Notes under the pieces: model-generated | What the model saw: the letters and a program-made list of their open reading frames with translations, nothing else | The model's database searches: none | What the model was told of the DNA's origin: nothing | Position numbers and translations under genes: made by a program | Assembly: GCF_950295315.1 (NCBI RefSeq) | Contig: NC_080170.1 | Location: forward strand, 98,517,971 to 98,581,970 | Direction: 5' to 3' | Source: Erinaceus europaeus | Lineage: Eukaryota; Chordata; Mammalia; Eulipotyphla; Erinaceidae | Length of the DNA: 64,000 nt | Shown: positions 2,776 to 63,653 of the stretch, one piece after another | Position numbering within the stretch: position 1 is the first letter of the stretch | Layout: each line of letters opens with the position of its first letter

Positions 2776-4835
2776 TGACAGAAAGATAAACTCAAAGCCG
2801 GTTTTCACTGAATTTGGAATAGGGCACCAAAGTAAAAATCTCTGAGTTGTGGATGAAGGTGGAAGTTCTGCTTCAGTGCAGGGGGGTAGCAGTGGGATGG
2901 GACACAGTCTTTTGGTGGTGGGAATGATGTTTATGTACACTCATATTAATCTGTAGTAATATAAATCACTATTTAATTAATATGTGAGGAGAAAATTGAT
3001 GGAATGTCTCAAACTTTTTAATGCACAGTCCACAGGCTGATTCTTTGATATGCTGGCTCTCTTAAAAGCTTAGACCAAGGAGAACTTGATACAGCAAATC
3101 CTAACAAAGGGATTTATCAAAGTTAAACCAACTGCCAAATAATTTGATTACAGCAGTAACAATATATTGCCTTCTTAAACCCTAAGATAGCAGGAGTCTC
3201 CCACTTCCTCTATAGAGCCTATATTTCCCCCAGTCCTGGGAACTCTAGGATGGGGCTCACTTTCCAACATGCTTCTCTAAATTCATACCAAGTTATATTG
3301 CATCTGCTGATCCCAACATAATCAACACAACGAGTACCATTTCAGCATACTTCACTTCAGACTGTGTCCAGAGATGTCAGTCATGGAATGTCATCCCTCT
3401 TCCCTCATTACTCAGGTGACACCTTTCCTTTCATAGTATTCTCTAATTCCATTCCAGGTGCTTCACTTCCTAACAATGTCCCAAAACCTAGATATAGACC
3501 AGGTCTCATGAGATAGGGCATATGTTAACATGTATCCACGAATTAGGGCAAAATGTATACCTGAAAGCAGAAGAACAATAGTCTGCAATAAGTCAGTATA
3601 AAGCTCATAATGAAATAGTGTCTACTTAGACTTAGATACCCTTCTCACCTACTTCCTATTACAGTTCTCTCACTCATTCCAAAGCTTAATTTATCAAAGC
3701 AAGGATTGCAAAACCTGAATAAAGGCAAGAGACAGGCATACTTTAACGATGACTCTTCAGTCATTGTCAGGCCACTTCATCAGCTGGGACCCTAATCGGG
3801 GAGTCCTGAGATTCCCCAGCAGACATGATGGGCCTAGACCTCAAATAGATCCCTTTCTCCGTATTTACTGTTCATCTCTATTAGGAACAACACAATAGAC
3901 CCCTTTGTGGGCCCTCATAGGTCCTTTCCCTCAACTTGGATCAACAGTGATAGAGATTGTTCCATCCTCCAAAGGGAGGCTGGACAACATACTCTAGGCT
4001 ACACCTGAGGAAGGTGGGTCTTGATACTGGGGCAGCTTGACCACAGAATTTGAGCTCAGATTTACAGGTATGCAGAGGTCATATAGGCTCCTAAGCTGAA
4101 TATGGGCCCCAGATCAGATAAAATAAATGGGGTTTACAGTCAACAATGTTTATATACCTTTCCCATATTTGGGAGCTACTGTCTTCCCTGATCCAAATTT
4201 ATGGTCCTTTATCCAGCCATGACATCATCTCCCCAGAGAATAACTTGGATCCATCTGCATATCAGATTTCAGGCTCAGGGGAAAAACAAACAACAACAGC
4301 AACAACAACAAAAACTAGTATAGTCACAGCTCCTTTGGAATATAACTAAAATAGGCCTATTAGCTATCTATAAAATGGAGACCCCCCCCAAGTCTTCATC
4401 TACACTATTCCATCCTTTAGGTTCATGATTAGTCAAGAACTTGTTTGGCTTTATATGTTAACTCTCTTTTCAGCCACCAGGATCCAGAGGCTACCATGAT
4501 GCCAGTCAGACTTCCCTGGACAGATAACCCCACCAATGTGTCCTGGAGCCCAGCAACTCCAGAGCCCTGCTCTACGAGGGAACAAGAGAAATAGTCTGGA
4601 AGTATGGATCGACCTGTTGGTGCCCATGTTTAGAGGGGAAGCAATTACAGAAGCCAGATCTTCCACCTTCTACAGCTGATAATGACCCTGGGTCCATACT
4701 CCCAGAGGGATAAAGTATAGGAAACCTATCCAGGAGGGGATGAGATGTGGAGTTCTGATGGTAGGAATTGTGTGGAGTTGTAACCCTCTTATCCTATGGA
4801 TTTTTCAACATTTCCTTTTTATAAAAACAAAACAA
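2776..4835 (+). other. L1 3' UTR, long form (~2.06 kb)
   Basis: This stretch follows the ORF2 stop and is co-linear with the minus-strand L1 3' UTR at 61335-59250. It includes the block beginning GGGCACCAAAGTAAAAAT near 2821, a middle part, an internal A/CAA-rich tract near 4283-4314, and the terminal block with CCCAGAGGGATAAAG near 4701 that recurs through the window. It contains a possible intron with donor near 3416 and acceptor near 4473. No open frame in it looks selected. Confidence 0.85.
3416..4473 (+). other. Predicted intron inside the long L1 3' UTR
   Basis: By alignment with the spliced copy at 10776-11490, the intron would start at CAG|GTGAC (3416) and end at CTCTTTTCAG (4473), giving 1058 bp. 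The acceptor has a pyrimidine tract and AG; the donor here is one base off the stronger GTGAGA of other copies. The copy itself is unspliced. The role is inferred from alignment only. Confidence 0.55.
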
Positions 4836-6117: not shown

Positions 6118-7725
6118 CTATTTCACAAGATTATATGATAAGAGGGGTACAATTCCACACAGTTCCCATCACCAGAGTTCTAAAGCCTAGACCAAGTAGA
6201 TCAGAAGCAACCAATAGCACAGCTATATACAAGATACTGGGTACTGTAACAAAAAGACTTTTCAAAGTTAACCCAATTACCAAATAATGTGATGATAACA
6301 TTAACTATCGATTGTCTTTTGGAACCCTAAGACAGCAGGAACCTCACATCTCCACTATAGAGCCTCTACTTCCTGCAGTCCTGGAACCCTTAGATAGGGC
6401 CCACTTTCCCGTATGCCTTTCCCAATCCATACCAAATACTATTGCATCTGCTGATCACAGAGTTCTATATCTCATCCCCTCCTTTGAAAGTTTCCCTATT
6501 CTCTATCCCTCTGTGAGTATAGACCGCAAGTCTTTATGGGATGCAGGTGGTGGAAGGTCTGGCTTCTGTAATAGCTTCTCTGCTGGACATGGGCATCAGT
6601 ATGACAGTCCATACCCACATTCTGCTTCTGCTGTTCCCTGATGGGCTAGGAGTCCGGGAAGGTGGTGTTCCAGGACACATTGATGAGGTTGTCTGCCTAG
6701 GGTTGGCATCATGGTAGCATCTGCAAATTGGAGGCAGAATAACGGTAATATATAAAAAAGAACAAATTATTTAATAATCAGGAACTTAAAAGTCAGGATA
6801 CAGCAGATGGAACTAATAGTCTTCATATGAGAAGAAGCTAAGAAGTCTATTTTGAGTATATTCCAAGGTGTCCATGATTTTACTAATTTTTTACTGAGCC
6901 TGATAGTGTTCAGGTGGGCTAACAGTATATATAGTCTGGGAAGATAGTGTCAGAGTTGAGAATAGTACAGGAAAGCTGGATCAGAACAGAGAGTAACTAC
7001 CAAACATGGACAGAGTTTATAAATAACATTAACCATAGACTTTCTGATCTCATCTGGGACCCATGTCTATTCATATTTTTGACAGAAGCCTGTGTAACCT
7101 CTGCATCACTGTCATTTGCACTGAACTCTTAGTCCATGGCCACAACTAGGAACATTAAAGGCTGCTGTCATTTCAGGTCCATCTTTCTTGAATGGCAGAG
7201 TATGTTGACCCACCTTCCCTTTGTATAGTGGGGCAGTTTCTATCATTGTTGTTCTATATTGAGGGCAAGATCCTGCAGAGGCCCACTAAAGGTTTTATGA
7301 TATTGTTCCTTTTGGAGACGACCAGTGATGGTGGAGAGAGAGGTCTGTTAGAGGTCTAGGGCCATAATATCTCTGTGAGAATCCAAGGATTACTTTAATG
7401 TATATATTTCCCCTAAGTTATGGATACATGTGCCCTTTATTTCAGGGCCTGGTCTATAACTAGGTTCTGTAATTTGTTAGGAAGTGTGTGAAATGGAACT
7501 AAGGAGTCCTATGAGCTAGGAAAGGTCTCACCAGACTATTAGAGCTAATGGGTTGACATCCCAGGCCTGCCATCTCTGGACATAGTCCATTGTGAAATAT
7601 GTCAAGGTAGCATTGATAGGGATTGTTTCTTTCTGCAAATAATTCTTCAACTGAGCTTTGAGGACAAATGAATAGGTTATCAGTACAGAAGAAAATGGAT
7701 ATTTCTGTAATAAAGGTCCATGTTG
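6118..7725 (-). mobile_element. Older L1 3' UTR fragment (minus), interrupted at 6182-6457
   Basis: Read on the minus strand this is the 3' UTR of the same L1 lineage, in an older, more diverged form. Hallmarks on the plus strand are AAGAGGGGTACAATTCCACA near 6140, CTCTATCCCTCTGTGAGTAT near 6500 and CCAGGACACATTGATGAGG near 6670. It continues through the middle of the UTR to about 7725. A 276-bp piece in the opposite orientation lies inside it. The A-tail end is weak. Confidence 0.8.
6182..6457 (+). mobile_element. Tailless L1 3' UTR fragment nested in the older 3' UTR
   Basis: The piece begins AAAGCCTAGACCAAGTAGAT and ends CATCTGCTGATCA; it matches about 62615-62895 of the younger plus-strand L1. 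It is flanked by CAGAGTTCT at 6173-6181 and 6458-6466, a 9-bp direct repeat that looks like a TSD. There is no A-tail, and the right edge lies within the UTR far from the L1 3' end. It could be a 3'-truncated retro-insertion or a repair patch. Confidence 0.65.
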
Positions 7726-10775: not shown

Positions 10776-11490
10776 GCTCCCAATCCATATCAAATAATAT
10801 TGCATCTGCCGATCGCAACCTAATCAACACAACGATTAGGGATGCATTAGATCGACCTTCTCGTGGTGCATCCCGTGAGTACCCATTTATTGGGGAAACT
10901 AACGATCCTTCCTAGCCGACTGAAACCACATGGATCCCAGTCACTTTCAAAGCCAGCAACAAGCAGACATCAGGCCCAACTTGATGCTGTTGACTGGCTA
11001 CGGAAGAAGGGCAAATGCTAGAAGAAGAAGAACACAACGATTGCCACCTCAACATGCTTCAGCGCAGACTGTGTCCAGAGACTTCATGTGTGGAATGACA
11101 ACCCTTCAGCTTCATTACTCGGCCACCAGGTTCCAGATGCCATCGGGATGCCGGCCAGGCTTCCCTGGACTGAAGACCCCACCAATGTGTCCTGGAGCTC
11201 CACTTCCCCAGAGACCCACCCTACTAGGGAAAGAGAGAGGCAGACTGGGAGTATGCACCAACCAGTCAAGGTCTATGTTCAGCAGGGAAGCAATTACAGA
11301 AGCCAGACCTTCCACCTTCTGCAACCCACAATGACCCTGGGTCCATGCTCCCAGAGGGATAGAGAATGGGAAAGCTATCAGGGGAGGGGATGGGATATGG
11401 AGATTGGGTGGTGGGAATTGTGTGGAGCTGTACCCCTCCTACCCTATGGTTTTGTTAATTTATCCTTTCTTAAATAAAAAATAAATTTAA
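10776..11490 (+). mobile_element. Processed, apparently spliced retrocopy of the L1 3' UTR
   Basis: This insertion splits the old L1 ORF2. It starts GCTCCCAATCCATATCAAAT and ends in AATAAAAAATAAATTT plus an A tract. It carries the same terminal blocks as the L1 3' UTRs at 17.1 and 63 kb, but the 271-272-bp segment bounded by GTGAGA and TTTTCAG is missing. The flanks join at 11122/11123 as CATTACTCGG|CCACCAGG. Direct repeats ACAGAAAAAA at 10765-10774 and 11497-11506 look like a TSD. It also contains a GAA-tailed SINE at 10838-11030. A chance deletion at exactly the splice sites is the alternative. Confidence 0.8.
10838..11030 (+). mobile_element. GAA-tailed SINE-like element (193 bp)
   Basis: The insert is flanked by the perfect 12-bp direct repeat AACACAACGATT at 10826-10837 and 11031-11042. 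It begins AGGGATGCATTAGATCGACC and ends in GAA repeats. Its 3' half (GACTGGCTACGGAAGAAGGG) recurs at 55.96-56.07 kb. No tRNA A/B boxes, 7SL or 5S sequence is obvious to me. The GAA tail points to mobilisation by something other than the A-tail L1 mode, or to a LINE-derived 3' end. Family unknown. Confidence 0.8.
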
Positions 11491-17119: not shown

Positions 17120-17841
17120 TTTTTTTTTAATTTATTTTTTATTTAAGAAAGGATAAATTAACAAAACCATAGGGTAGGAGGGGTACAGCTCCACACAATT
17201 CCCACCACCCAATCTCCATATCCCATCCCCTCCCCTGATAGCTTTCCCATTCTCTATCCCTCTGGGAGCATGGACCCAGGGTCATTGTGGGTTGCAGAAG
17301 GTGGAAGGTCTGGCTTCTGTAATTGCTTCCCCGCTGAACATGGACGTTAAGTGGTCGGTCCATACTCCCAGTCTGCCTCTCTCTTTCCCTAGTAGGGTGG
17401 GTCTCTGGGGAAGCGGAGCTCCAGGACACATTGGTGGGGTCTTCAGTCCAGGGAAGCCTGGCCGGCATCCTGATGGCATCTGGAACCTGGTGGCTGAAAA
17501 GAGAGTTAACATACAAAGCCAAACAAATTGTTGAGCAATCATGGACCCAAAGCTTGGAATAGTGGAGAGGAAGTGTTAGGGGGGTACTCACTGCAAACTC
17601 TAGTGTACTTCTGCTTTCAGGTATATATTTTGCAGTAGTTTACGGATACGTGTGAACATATGTTCTCTCTCACAGAACCTGGTCTATATCTAGGTTTTGG
17701 GACTTTGTTAGAAAGTGATCCACCTGGGATGGAATTAGAGAATGCTATGAAAGGAAAGGTCTCACCCAAGTAATGAAGCTGAAGAGCTGTCATTCCACAC
17801 CTGAAGTCTCTGGACACAGTCTGAGCTGAAGCATGTTGAGG
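17120..17841 (-). mobile_element. L1 3' UTR retrocopy (minus), unspliced, 15-bp TSD
   Basis: A 5'-truncated insertion consisting only of the last ~720 bp of the short-form L1 3' UTR, with its A-tail (T run at 17120-17128). The perfect 15-bp TSD AAAGCACAACTACTT occurs at 17105-17119 and 17842-17856. It retains the predicted intron on the minus strand, 17765 to 17494. It is the direct unspliced counterpart of 10776-11490. Confidence 0.9.
17494..17765 (-). other. Predicted intron in the short-form L1 3' UTR (272 bp)
   Basis: Read on the minus strand the exon ends CATTACTTGG, the donor is GTGAGACC, and the acceptor is CTCTTTTCAG followed by CCACCAGGTTCC. The bounded segment is precisely what the copy at 10776-11490 lacks. 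Confidence 0.65.
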
Positions 17842-22862: not shown

Positions 22863-24017
22863 TCCCCTCCTATATATTTTCCTATATATTTTTCCTATAA
22901 TTTGAAGCTCTTGGAAATCTAGACTGCTTTCTTCTTGTCATTTCTCTATAAGCCTAATAGTTTTTGTTGAAGATGATATCTAACTTGGAATTCTATCATA
23001 CCATTTTAAGTTACTTTTGACTTTAGTTTTTCCTGAATAACGCATATGGAATGTTACTATAAAACACATTATGGTTAAAGATAAGTATTTGCTTCTGCTA
23101 CAAATTTCATATAGTTCTGAGCTCTATTTCCTCAACACTGTCAGAAAATAGAATTCCAGAAGGACTGATAGTGTGTCACCATGCAATTTACCTCATAATT
23201 ATTTAAATAGTTTACTCTAACTTCCCGATCATTATAAGATATTATACTTGAAGCTATCCAAATTTTATATAAAACTTGTGTAACTGTTTGCTCAGGTTTT
23301 GAATTCTCTGTCTGTAAATATAGGAACAAAAAACTCAATAGTTTCCGGAGCCCAAGGTTCTCTGAGAGTGCCGTTTCAGCTTACTCTCTGAGACCTTATT
23401 CTTGTCTTTTGTTTGATTTTGTTGGAACCTAGCCATTGTTACTAACTTAGTAAGGATTAAAGTGTCTTTTTATAAAACTAGAGACTTTTGTCTTTTCATG
23501 TCAGATACTCTGCTTTTTAAGATTTTTATCTCTTTCTTTTTATTCGCTCTGTTTATCATTTCTTTTTCTTCTGTATTAATTGGTGTATTTCCTTGATTAT
23601 CTGTGTGTGTGTTTTCACTGCTCCTGTATTGATTATCAGAAGCACCTTTTTTTAAATTTGTTTGATTTATGTCTAATTTCCTGTGTATGTCCAATCTTCA
23701 TAGATAATCTATAAGTCACTTAAATTTATACCTGTGAAGCTTCAGCACAGATTTCAATTAACCAAATTCCTCATAGCCTACAAGTCCAAGTTGATGGGCT
23801 AAGGCATGAAAGATGGAACAAAATACAAGATGAATCATGGTTGATGTGAATGCTATTGAGGTCCACTCTTAGTAGCAAGGGTTGGAAACCTAGGGTTTTT
23901 AGTGATTGTGAATTTGCTATCTTCCTTAGCTTATGATACTTTTTCTTTATAAAAATGTATATTTATTAATAAAAGATGCTACTTTTCTCAACAAAAATTC
24001 ATAACTTGTATCTCAAA
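22863..24017. other. Unassigned stretch with a Lys/Asn-rich minus-strand frame
   Basis: No recognised element. A 74-aa minus-strand frame at 23470-23694 is rich in Lys, Asn and Ser (e.g. EKEMINRANKKKEIKILKS). I cannot place it; it could be a relic of an L1 coiled-coil region or simply AT-rich chance. Confidence 0.35.
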
Positions 24018-46979: not shown

Positions 46980-48185
46980 AATATGACAGTGCTATCGTTC
47001 TGAGCTCACATTCCATGGTCATAGCTAGGAACATTCTAAACTGCACTCATTTCAGGACCAGTCTTACTCAAGTGGCAGGGTATGTTGACCCAGCCTTCCT
47101 CTGAAAGGTGGGGCAATTTCTACATTGAAGGCAAGGTCCTGTAGAGGCCCACAAGAGCGATGATGATGTTGTTCCTGTTGGAGATGACCAGTGATGGTGT
47201 AGAAAGGGATCTGTTAGAGGTCTAGGCCTATCATATCTATTTGGGAATCTCAGGATTCCATGACTAGGGTTCTGAATGATGAGTTGGCTTGGTAGTGATC
47301 AAAAGGGTCATCATTAGAATGTGCTGGTCTATTGCCCTTATCCAGATTTTGTAGTCTATAATTTTTCTGAAAGTACTTGGTTTAGAGTGTTTGAGGGAAA
47401 CAAAATGGAAGTAAGTGAGCAGGGTATCTAGCTCTAAGTAGAGAATATTTAAGTAAATGCTTTATGGTGTTCTACACAAACTACTGTGCTAAGTATGAAC
47501 AGATACAGGCCACACAGGTCAGATGGATGGGGTTTACAGTTAATGGTATTTATATGCATTTCTCATATTTGAGAGCTACTTTCTGCCCAGCTGTCAGGTC
47601 CTATTCCCAACTCTGACCCAATCCTTAGACTGTACTTTTAGTTCACATGCATGTTAGCTGTCTGGCCCAGGCAATAAAGTCACAGGCCCATCAGAATATA
47701 GCTAAAATAGATTTCCTAATTTCTTCCAACATAAAGATCTCAAATATCATCTGCTATACTCTTGCCTTTACATTCCTAATTATTAAACAATTAGTTCTGC
47801 TTCATATCAGTGCTTTTCAGCCACCAAGTTGCAGAAGCTACCATGATGCTGAACTGACTTCCCTGGGTAGACAAGCTCACCAATGTTTCCTGGAACCTTA
47901 CGTCCCCAGAGCCTTACCCCACTAGGGAAAGATAGAAACAGACTGGGAGTATGGAATTGCCTGTCAATGCCTATGTCCAGTAGAAAAGCAATTACAGAAG
48001 CCAGACCTTCCACCTTCTGCACCCCGTAATGATTTTTGGCCCATTACTCCAGAGGGATAAAGAATAGGGAAGTTTCCAGTGTAGGGGAGGGAATACAGAA
48101 CTCCTGTGGTGGGGATTGTGTGGAATTGTACCCTTCTATCCCACAATGTCGTTGATCATTACTAAATCACTACTAAAATAAATTT
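46980..48185 (+). mobile_element. L1 3' UTR insertion with 5' inversion
   Basis: Bases 46980-47500 are the old 3' UTR on the minus strand (GAGCTCACATTCCATGGTC, CAGGGTATGTTGACCCAGCC). From about 47510 the sense strand follows (ATGGATGGGGTTTACAGTTA) to the terminal block CCAGAGGGATAAAGAATAGG and a tail near 48185. The outer end of the inverted part (near GAGCTCA) and the start of the sense part lie within about 60 bp of each other in the first L1, as twin priming predicts. The predicted intron's acceptor side (TTTTCAGCCACC) is retained. Confidence 0.82.
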
Positions 48186-55957: not shown

Positions 55958-56071
55958 ACGACTGCCACCTCTCCAGATTCAAAGGAGGTCTCGAAACTTT
56001 ACATCAGGCTCAACCTGACGCTGTCGACTGGCTATGGAAGAAGGGCAAACACTAGAAGAAGAAGAAGAAGA
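55958..56071 (+). mobile_element. GAA-tailed SINE-like element (114 bp), 12-bp TSD
   Basis: Flanked by perfect ATAGCAAATAAA at 55946-55957 and 56072-56083. The 3' half (ACTGGCTATGGAAGAAGGGC and GAA repeats) matches the element at 10838-11030, the 5' half does not. It begins ACGACTGCCACCTC, which also occurs in the L1 3' UTR. Confidence 0.82.
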
Positions 56072-59246: not shown

Positions 59247-61350
59247 TATATTTTTTTATTTATAAAAAGGAAACGTTGACAAAACCAGAGGATAAGAGGG
59301 GTACAACTTCACACAATTCCCACCAGCAAACCTCTGTATCCCATCCCCTCCTCTGATAGCTTTCCTATTCTTTATCCCTCTGGGAGTATGGACCCAAGGT
59401 CATTGTGGGATGCAGAAGGTTGAAGGTCTGACTTCTGTAATTGCTTCCCCACTGAACATGGGACTTGATAGGTCGATCCATACTCCCAACCTGTTTCTCT
59501 CTGTAGTGGGGAAGGGCTATTGGGAAGTGGAGCTCCAAGGCACATTGGTGGGGTCTGGTCGCATCCTGCTAGCATCTGGAACCTGGTGGCTGAAAAGAGA
59601 GTCAACATACAAAGCCAAACAAACTGTTGAACAATCATGGACCTAAAGGCTGGAATAATGCAGATGAAGTGTTGGGGGGTCCTCCATTTTGTTGATAACT
59701 AGTAGGCATATTTTAGTTATATTTCAAAGGGTCTGTAGCTATACTAGTGTTTTATTTTTTTGTTTTTTGTGGGTTTTTTTTTTTTTTTTTTCAGGAGCCT
59801 GAAATCTGATATATAGGTGGATCCAAGTTATTGTCTGGGGAGATGATGTCATGGCTGGTAAAAGGACCAGAAAGCTGGATCAGGGAAGAGAGTAGTTCCC
59901 TAATATGGGAAAGAGGTATAAGTATTGTTGACTATAAACCCCATCAATTTGATGTGCTCTGGGGCCCATAATTAGCTTAGGAGCCTGCATAACCTCTACA
60001 TCCCTCTAGATCTGAGCTCACATTCTGTGGTCATGAGTAGGAACATTCCATGCTGCCCCAGTATTGACTTATCTTCCTCAGGTATAGCATAGAGTATGTT
60101 GTCCAGCCTCCGTTCAGAGGATGGGACATTCTCTACCATTGTTGATTCAAGTTGAGGCCAAGGTCCTATGGGGGTCTATTTTGTTGTTCCTGATAGAAAT
60201 GACCTGTATCAATAAAGAGAGGAATTTATTCGAGTTCTAGGCCCATCACATCTGTTTGGGAATCTCAGGATTCCCCAATTAGGGCTCCAGCTGGTGGAAT
60301 GGCCTGATAGTGACTAAAGAGTCATCATTAAAGTAGGCCAGTCCCTTGCTCTTACTCAGCTTTTGCAGTCCTTGCTTTGATAATGTTAGCTTTAGAGTGA
60401 GTGAGAGAACTAAATAGGAGGTAGGTGAAGAGGGTATCTAAGCCTAAGTGGATGCTATTTCATTACGAACTTAATACTGACTCACTATAGGCTATTGTGT
60501 ATTTTTGCTTTCAGGTATAAATTTTGCCCTAATTTGTGGATACATGTGAACATATGCTCTATGTAATGGAATTTGGCCTATATCTAGGTTTTGGGACTTT
60601 ATTAGAAAGTGACCATCCTGGAATGGAATTAGAGAATACCATGAAAGAAAAGTTCTCACCTGAATGATGAGGGTAAAGGGTTGGTATTCCATGCCTGACG
60701 TCTCTGTACACAATCTGAGGTAAAGCATGCTGAGGTGGTACTCCTTGCATTGATAGGTTGGAATCTTCTGATGCACTATCATTTGTTATGACTTGAGAGA
60801 AGCATGCAAGGAAGTGAGCCTCACCCCAGAAGTTCCAGGACTGGGAGAATCATAAAACTCTATAGAGGAAGCAGGAGATTCCTGTTATCTTAGGGTTTAA
60901 GAAGAAAATAGATAGTTATTTCAATAATCATATTGTTTGGCAGCTGGGTTAACCTTGAAAAACCCCTTTGTTAGGATTTGCTGTGTCATGTACAACATAA
61001 CCATAGTTTATATCCTTTGACATTATTTGCATATAGCTATGCCACCGGTTGCTTTGTTCTTCCTGGACTAAACTTTTAAGAGAGTCAACATATCAAAGAC
61101 TCAGACTATGTATTAAAAAGACTCAGTATTTGCTTTAAAAGTTTGAGACATTCAGTTTTTCCCCTCTCATATAACTTAGTGACTTATATGACTACAAATA
61201 AATAGGAGTGTACATAAACAGCATTCCTGCCACCAAAAGACTGTATCCCATCCCTACTACCCCCACCCCCGCACTATGAAGCTGAACATCCACCCTCACC
61301 GTACCCCCAGAGTTTTTACTTTGGTGCCCTACTATAAATTTAGTCAGATC
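59247..61350 (-). mobile_element. L1 3' UTR, long form (minus), part of an L1 running off the window
   Basis: About 2.1 kb co-linear with 2776-4835 of the first L1: start block near 61330 (GGCACCAAAGTAAAAACTC on the minus strand), predicted intron, internal A-rich tract at 59771-59792 (T run), terminal block and tail near 59250. It continues at 63669-64000 beyond a nested L1. Confidence 0.9.
59590..60659 (-). other. Predicted intron in the long-form L1 3' UTR (1070 bp)
   Basis: On the minus strand the donor is CATTCAG|GTGAGAAC, a consensus-quality site, and the acceptor is CTCTTTTCAG|CCACCAGG. The positions correspond to the splice junction of the copy at 11122/11123. Confidence 0.6.
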
Positions 61351-62290: not shown

Positions 62291-62999
62291 GAAAGAAGAT
62301 CTGAAAGGGAAACTAAAAGCAGGACCAGACCAAATTGTAAGTAGGGCACCAAAGTAAAAACCCTGTGGTGAGGGGTAGACATGCAGCTTCCTGGGCCAGT
62401 AGGGGGTGGGAGTGGGTGGGAGAGATGGGTCACAGTCTTTTGGTGATGGGAATGGTGTTTATGTACACTCCTAGTAAAATGTAGTCATATAAATCACTAG
62501 TTAATTAATACGAGAGGGGGGAAATTAATTGTATGTCTCGAAGTTTTTGAAAACACAAACTGAATCTTTTCAATATATAGGTTGTGTAATTGATATTCAG
62601 ACTCTCTCAAAAGCCTAGACCAAGTAGATCAGAAGCAACCAATAGCACAGCTATATACAAGATACTGGGTACTCTACAGCAAACCATAACAAAAGGACTT
62701 TTCAAAGTTAACCCAATTACCAAATAATGTGATGATGACATTAACTATTGATTGTCTTTTTGGACCCTAAGACAGCAGGAACCTCACATCTCCACTATAG
62801 AGCCCCTACTTCCCCCAGTCCTGGAACCCTTGGATAGGGCCCACTTTCCCGTATGCCTCTCCCAATCCATATCAAATAATATTGCATCTGCCGATCACAA
62901 CCTAACCAACACAACGACTGCCATCTCAACATGCTTCACTTCAGACTGTGTCCAGATTCTTCATGTGTGGAATGACAACCCTTCAGCTTCATTACTCGG

Positions 63000-63270
63000 G
63001 TGAGACCTTTCCTTTCATAGTATACTTTAATTCTATCTCAGGTGGTTCACTTTCTAACAAAGTCCCATAACCTAGATATAGACCAGGTTCTGTGAGAGAG
63101 AGCATATGTTCACACATATCCGTAAACTACTGCAAAAAAATACCTGAAAGCAGAAGTACACTAGAGTTTGCAGTGAGCACCCCCCTAACACTTCCTCTCC
63201 ACTATTCCAAGCTTTGGGTCCATGATTGCTCAACAATTTGTTTGGCTTCGTATGTTAACTCTCTTTTCAG
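63000..63270 (+). other. Predicted intron in the short-form L1 3' UTR (271 bp)
   Basis: Exon ends ATTACTCGG at 62999; donor GTGAGACC starts at 63000; acceptor CTCTTTTCAG ends at 63270; next exon TCACCAGGTTCC. Removing it gives the junction seen at 11122/11123, apart from a T/C difference. Confidence 0.68.
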
Positions 63271-63617
63271 TCACCAGGTTCCAGATGTCATCAGGATGCC
63301 TGCCAGGCTTCCCTAGACTGAAGACCCCACCAATGTGTCCTGGAGCTCAGCTTTCCCAGAGACCCACCCTACTAGGGAAAGAGAGAGGCAGACTGGGAGT
63401 ATGGACCGACCAGTCAATGCCCATGTTCAGCAGGGAAGCAATTACAGAAGCCAGACCTTCTACCTTCTGCAAGCCACAATGACCCTGGATCCATGCTCCC
63501 AGAGGGATACAGAATGGGAAAGCTATCAGGGGAGGGGGTGGGAAATGGAGATTGGGTGGTGAGAATTGTGTGAAATTGTACCCCTCCTACCCTATGGCTT
63601 TGTTAATTAATCCTTTC

Positions 63618-63653
63618 TTAAATAAAAAAATAAATAAATAAATAAATAAATAA
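63618..63653. repeat. (AAAT)n tail of the young L1
   Basis: AAATAAAT units at the 3' end of the L1, immediately before its TSD. Confidence 0.9.

Follow-up and report, generated by a model that had tools for sequence, protein, structure and literature searches.

An autonomous retrotransposon replicates by way of an RNA and would, for that reason, be expected to lose any intron it carries. In the window, the 64,000-nucleotide stretch of hedgehog (Erinaceus europaeus) DNA analysed here, one L1 copy is without a segment of the 3′ untranslated region (3′ UTR) that other copies carry between a GT and an AG. The question raised by this locus is whether the segment was removed from an RNA by splicing before the copy was made, or was lost, or never acquired, in another way.

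An exact junction in the window copy

The window copy, on the plus strand, was divided into the following parts.

10777..10837, plus strand: start of a 5′-truncated retrocopy, predicted to be spliced, on the exon 1 side of the L1 3′ UTR; its last 12 bases (10826-10837) are the first copy of AACACAACGATT
10838..11030, plus strand: nested SINE-like insertion of 193 bp with an (AAG)n tail, flanked by the 12-bp repeat AACACAACGATT
11031..11122, plus strand: end of exon 1, ...CATTACTCGG, 92.4% identical to 62908-62999
11122..11123, plus strand: exon-exon junction with the intron absent, read from the sequence and recurring genome-wide
11123..11490, plus strand: exon 2, which is the 3′-terminal part of the L1 3′ UTR, with an A-rich tail, from alignment to the 17-kb copy

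The initial annotation had proposed a precise joining of the exons at 11122/11123. This stood: CATTACTCGG/CCACCAGG are joined exactly at that point, with one base (G) of ambiguity in the placement, and the junction recurs 57 times genome-wide (see below). On the exon 1 side, 10777-10835 matches 62859-62917 at 96.6% identity. For exon 2, the identity is 97.3% to 17494-17121 over 374 bp, and 93.1% to the 62-kb copy. The SINE-like unit, which the initial annotation does not mention, is followed on its 3′ side by the second copy of AACACAACGATT (11031-11042) and is missing in L051, L058 and L059, which are close spliced relatives; this insertion is a later event, unrelated to splicing. A relative of the 3′ part of the unit, 89% identical, is found at 56001-56065.

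The TSD-like repeats that had also been described around the element are upheld in part. By eye, the A-rich repeat ACAGAAAAAA is present on both flanks, which makes a weak TSD; the automatic scans gave 7-8 bp, with a filter that excludes repeats so rich in A, and the tight-gap scan placed the 5′ boundary of this copy wrongly at the SINE edge.

Copies that retain the segment

The following copies in the window retain the segment or its 3′ border.

62859..62999, plus strand: exon 1 end of the 62-kb intron-bearing copy (alignment)
63000..63270, plus strand: retained intron of 271 bp, GTGAGA...CTCTTTTCAG (alignment and splice-signal ranking)
63271..63640, plus strand: exon 2 of the 62-kb copy (alignment)
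17494..17765, minus strand: retained intron of 272 bp, GTGAGA...CTCTTTTCAG, in the closest relative within the window that has the intron
3416..4473, plus strand: long intron form, 1058 bp (alignment)
59590..60659, minus strand: long intron form, 1070 bp (alignment)
47761..47820, plus strand: more diverged L1 copy, still with ...GTGCTTTTCAG before exon 2 (survey of exon 2 starts)

In all four intron-bearing window copies, the segment starts with GTGA and ends with CTCTTTTCAG. The long-form copies at 3.4 and 60 kb are more diverged, and their borders are the same as those of the short form. Segments of 271-272 bp and of about 1.06 kb with the same borders, as first annotated, were confirmed in these four copies. 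The copy at 17121-17841 (minus strand) is young and intron-bearing, with a clear 15-bp TSD, aagtagttgtgcttt, read directly.

Donors were ranked by their match to the 5′ end of U1, and acceptors by a simple pyrimidine score. For the 62-kb copy, the donor is the best U1 match among 68 GTs, and the acceptor is first of 96 AGs. The donors of the 17-, 3- and 60-kb copies rank 1, 2 and 1, and their acceptors 3, 8 and 10, respectively.

The short intron is without the inner part, about 0.8 kb, of the 1.06-kb form (63164-63180 compared with 3581-4383; 17600-17584). Splicing of the long form was rejected as the origin of the 271-bp form: the lost inner part has no GT start, and its ends share GAG, as judged by eye.

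CAG directly precedes exon 2 in 13 of the 19 non-junction exon 2 starts listed from the window and the fetched loci, the other six being without it. Diverged copies are among the 13; those at 47821, L061:3100 and L018:3238 end in CTTTTCAG before exon 2. A diverged exon 1 end at 7542 (minus strand) is followed by GTGAGACC. Because CAG is found before exon 2 in diverged copies, the presence of the intron looks like the old state in this L1 family, and its loss at 11122/11123 looks derived.

Recurrence and sharpness of the junction

The genome searched was that of the window itself, 2.72 Gb in 1172 contigs. The exact 18-base junction was found at 57 places (reversed control, 0), greatly in excess of chance, and the exact 18-base donor-retaining form at 23,640. 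In viral contigs, an exact scan found no match to the junction. A gap search, with anchors in both exons and any 0-30 bases between them, returned 792 places genome-wide (control, 1); these anchors register only ends near the borders, large imprecise deletions falling outside the count.

Among the 100 matches listed of these 792, the gap was of 11 bases in 59 and of 4 bases in 36. The 11-base gap is that expected from the GT-AG splice, with CGG/YCACCAGG and variants (class I). The 4-base gap corresponds to CGG/GTTCC, with the acceptor 7 nt downstream (class II), and the exact class II 20-mer was found at 265 places genome-wide (control, 0). The remaining listed matches comprise two with 3 or 12 bases and three with 17-19. 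One of the latter, at C1:58924911 and with 17 bases, could have exon 1 joined to the last intron bases through an imprecise deletion; the other two have one shared sequence, unlike the element. As contrary evidence, the initial annotation had named scattered deletion ends, or a lone copy without the segment; what was found is 57 exact copies, with 95 of the 100 listed gap matches at one of two lengths only.

As a rough estimate, the spliced share is (57+265)/23,640, or about 1.4%, with anchors of unequal length and the CGG/T class excluded. Four identical CTCTG/CCACC spliced matches are located within 0.26 Mb, on alternating strands (C1:114791043, 114837825, 114996381 and 115044684), and probably reflect duplication within this region, not four insertions.

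Retrotransposition hallmarks of the junction copies

All 57 junction copies (56 fetched loci and the window copy) were examined. Every copy could be aligned across the junction to the remaining 56, at a best identity per copy of 82.0-96.5%. Counted from the junction, the 5′ ends of the contiguous matches lie between -1580 and -13 and take 54 distinct values; some of these (that of the window copy included) are edges of nested insertions and not true 5′ ends.

With tight gaps, TSD-like repeats of at least 13 bp were found in 11 of 46 evaluable copies, compared with 4 of 224 mismatched flank pairs; 11 of the 57 copies had been dropped, their 3′ end not being clean, and 35 of the 46 have no TSD of at least 13 bp. 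An earlier scan with 350-bp gaps, confounded by nested repeats, gave repeats of at least 13 bp in 13 of 57 copies and in 0 of 166 controls. The L1 hallmarks, namely 5′ truncation, an A-rich tail and TSDs, are present among the junction copies, the window copy being a weak case. The spliced copies are dispersed, with widely varied divergence, and the 57 look like separate insertions and not one duplicated locus.

A mutated acceptor and the second junction

Among 20 donor-retaining copies that were fetched, exon 2 was found in 16 and the short intron in 13. The acceptor of these 13 is CAA/T (before CACC) in nine and CAG in four. After the lost acceptor AG, the next AG is found exactly 7 nt downstream, in TCACCAG/GTTCC.

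A lineage tree was built on exon 2 beyond the shifted acceptor, the acceptor columns being excluded. It took 18 of the 57 junction copies, as well as 10 class II copies from the 36 listed 4-base matches; its 28 class I rows are of the C type (18), the T type (6) and the CTCTG type (4). One clade of 19 rows (SH-aLRT 94, just below the 95 mark of the tool) holds all 10 sampled class II rows and eight of the nine unspliced CAA/T rows, and none of the 28 sampled class I rows. Fisher tests of clade membership gave 2e-9 for class II versus class I, and 0.011 for unspliced CAA/T versus CAG. The exceptions are L071, an unspliced CAG copy inside the clade, and L074, a CAA/T copy outside it.

Because class II is confined to the CAA lineage in these samples, the AG to AA change in this young lineage appears to have displaced splicing to the following AG. 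Such a switch, from a mutated acceptor to the AG after it, is the signature of the spliceosome; deletion and template-switch models do not predict the shift. The earlier reading of the window copy as a retrotransposed spliced RNA gains support from the sharp junctions, and from a second length that is explained by a lineage with a mutated acceptor. Class II makes up 25 of the 41 exact CGG-type matches among those listed, and CAA/T nine of the 13 sampled short-intron copies, a rough comparison of small samples suggesting that the CAA change moved splicing without large loss. The change would represent a natural splice-site mutant, with the molecular result written in the genome.

The long-intron copies L065 and L070 also have a CAA acceptor and are found outside the young CAA clade, for which independent decay or recurrent change is suggested.

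Number of splicing events and other origins of the junction

The first tree combined 51 class I rows with 19 unspliced rows and an outgroup; because their exon 2 is short, six of the 57 junction copies were omitted. The unspliced rows were few, mostly young, and taken from the first places on one contig. A single clade for the 51 class I rows was rejected (p-AU 0.0009), in a tree where 51 of 68 inner branches are weakly supported. The spliced and unspliced labels are clustered, with 6 changes against a shuffled mean of 16.9, and just 2 changes are required by the branches with strong support, so part of the spliced copies may derive from sources that were already intronless, and some intronless copies may have bred further.

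Carried to its end, this would mean that splicing occurred only a few times and that an intronless L1 source then bred an intronless subfamily, which we consider unlikely, if still worth some weight. The clustering would be expected under such amplification, as would the grouping of L086, L089 and L093 in the lineage tree and the four identical matches at C1:114.79-115.04 Mb. However, undersampling of the unspliced rows itself makes the labels look clustered, class I is spread over most of the weakly resolved tree in which one clade was rejected, and no fewer than two separate origins are needed to account for the acceptor shift.

A DNA-level deletion, or jumping or template switching of the reverse transcriptase, with the GT-AG ends due to coincidence or to a hotspot, is very improbable as the source of the junction. 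It would fit the one-base (G) ambiguity, the single listed match that may be an imprecise deletion, and the shrinkage of the intron (about 1.06 kb in the long form, 271 bp in the short), which itself looks by eye like a jump at the shared GAG. Nevertheless, only two lengths are seen in those 95 of 100 listed matches (with anchors that register near-border ends only), the second length falls in the mutated-acceptor lineage, and a move to the following AG would be expected from neither microhomology nor jumping, so that the shift largely refutes this origin.

Some of the spliced rows diverge close to the base of the first tree, as they would if the intronless state were ancestral and the segment had been inserted into the 3′ UTR later, but such a gain is equally improbable in view of the CAG before 13 of 19 exon 2 starts, the exon 1 end at 7542 that continues into GTGAGACC, and the 4-base class, which also removes 7 bp of exon 2, a result that no insertion history yields.

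Splicing is the explanation that we hold with high confidence: a spliceosomal intron would be located in the L1 3′ UTR, the window copy would be a retrocopy of a spliced RNA, and the acceptor would have shifted in the CAA lineage. The genomic sequence itself shows the precise loss from GT to AG, its repetition at numerous loci and an acceptor shift in step with the acceptor mutation; from these we infer the spliced RNA itself, its share of the total L1 RNA and any fate such as nonsense-mediated decay (NMD). The intron would sit about 0.7 kb past the ORF2 stop. Most of the L1 RNAs that are reverse transcribed would retain it, as would most new copies, and this would account for its persistence. 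A minor part of the L1 RNAs would be spliced in the germ line, be reverse transcribed nonetheless and give rise to roughly one in every hundred copies. Target-primed reverse transcription of the spliced RNA would then leave copies without exactly the intron, and 10777-11490 would be one of these, 5′-truncated and subsequently hit by the SINE-like insertion. In the young lineage, the acceptor would have changed from CAG to CAA, with splicing then using the next AG, 7 nt downstream. NMD of the spliced RNA could lower its share among new copies.

Position of the intron relative to ORF2

In eight copies, the next in-frame stop after the ORF2 tail is found 640-762 bp before the junction, some of these stops being premature. 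The distance is 708 in L057, a spliced copy whose contiguous match runs back to -1580, into ORF2. The placement of the intron some 700 bp after the ORF2 stop, made in the initial annotation, agrees with these values. Three further rows, with distances of 814, 1050 and 1273, may contain insertions inside or belong to another element.

In a PDB sequence search, the 79-aa frame of L057 matched residues 1197-1272 of the LINE-1 ORF2 protein (8uw3, E 7.7e-23; 8sxt, E 3.9e-22), both entries being human LINE-1 ORF2 proteins. A Pfam search with the same ORF2-tail piece gave no family. Homology to the ORF2p C-terminus upstream of the 3′ UTR in L057 supports membership in L1.

With a junction more than 50-55 nt past the stop in the eight copies and the three further rows, the arrangement, and only the arrangement, is of the NMD type. 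An mRNA whose intron lies more than 50 nt beyond the stop codon is exposed by that layout to EJC-dependent decay (PMC7310861, PMC3711448). The targets with 3′ UTR introns described there share this distance with the L1 but are host genes, and the likeness of the L1 RNA to them is in arrangement alone. Spliced L1 RNA could be exposed to NMD, or could escape 3′ UTR control.

Comparison with known spliced L1 elements

Spliced integrated retrotransposed elements (SpIREs) of human L1 were described by Larson et al. 2018 (PMC5860796), where they account for 116 of 6,609 (1.8%) annotated full-length L1PA1-6. These are likewise L1 copies without a GT-AG segment and with hallmarks of target-primed reverse transcription, and in them, too, a sequence change shifted acceptor use (PMC5860796). 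Their 1.8% and the approximately 1.4% found here are of similar order, although counted differently. According to the same text, SpIRE splices fall within the 5′ UTR or run from the 5′ UTR to ORF1, and cut promoter activity or spoil ORF1p (PMC5860796). The hedgehog L1 intron is unlike these in being located in the 3′ UTR, downstream of ORF2, and in having long and short forms. As in SpIREs, the segment is lost exactly at GT...AG relative to the source; the donor and the acceptor are both 3′ of ORF2, and not in the 5′ UTR or ORF1. Judged from the copies, this is a SpIRE-like event at a new place in L1, and none of the published classes 97/622, 97/790 and 97/976.

LINE-1 chimeras formed by cis- or trans-splicing also have splice signals in L1 RNAs that mark new insertions, but they join L1 to host exons, and here both ends are inside L1 (PMC13174262). 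Searches by title and start of abstract, not all directed at this point and with most subscription journals outside them, found no paper naming an intron in the L1 3′ UTR.

A reason for keeping the intron may be sought in the HUSH complex, which silences long intronless transcripts (PMC8770142). In the human reporters of that work, an intron placed at either end of ORF2 gave protection from HUSH even when unspliced, and protection was better with a mutated 3′ splice site. Because introns beside ORF2 protect reporters, a selective reason for keeping the intron is conceivable. We regard it as doubtful that a mostly unspliced 3′ UTR intron has been kept as camouflage against HUSH, with spliced retrocopies as the cost: short introns gave little protection (PMC8770142), while the L1 intron shrank from about 1.06 to 0.27 kb.

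This L1 lineage appears to have carried an intron through the long form, the short form and the diverged copies, and the hundreds of spliced copies would be a fossil record of its splicing. Two questions are thereby opened to direct testing: by what means a retroelement can retain an intron, and whether L1 benefits or suffers from introns through NMD or HUSH. On a practical level, annotation pipelines may mistake the 3′ UTR forms for different subfamilies.
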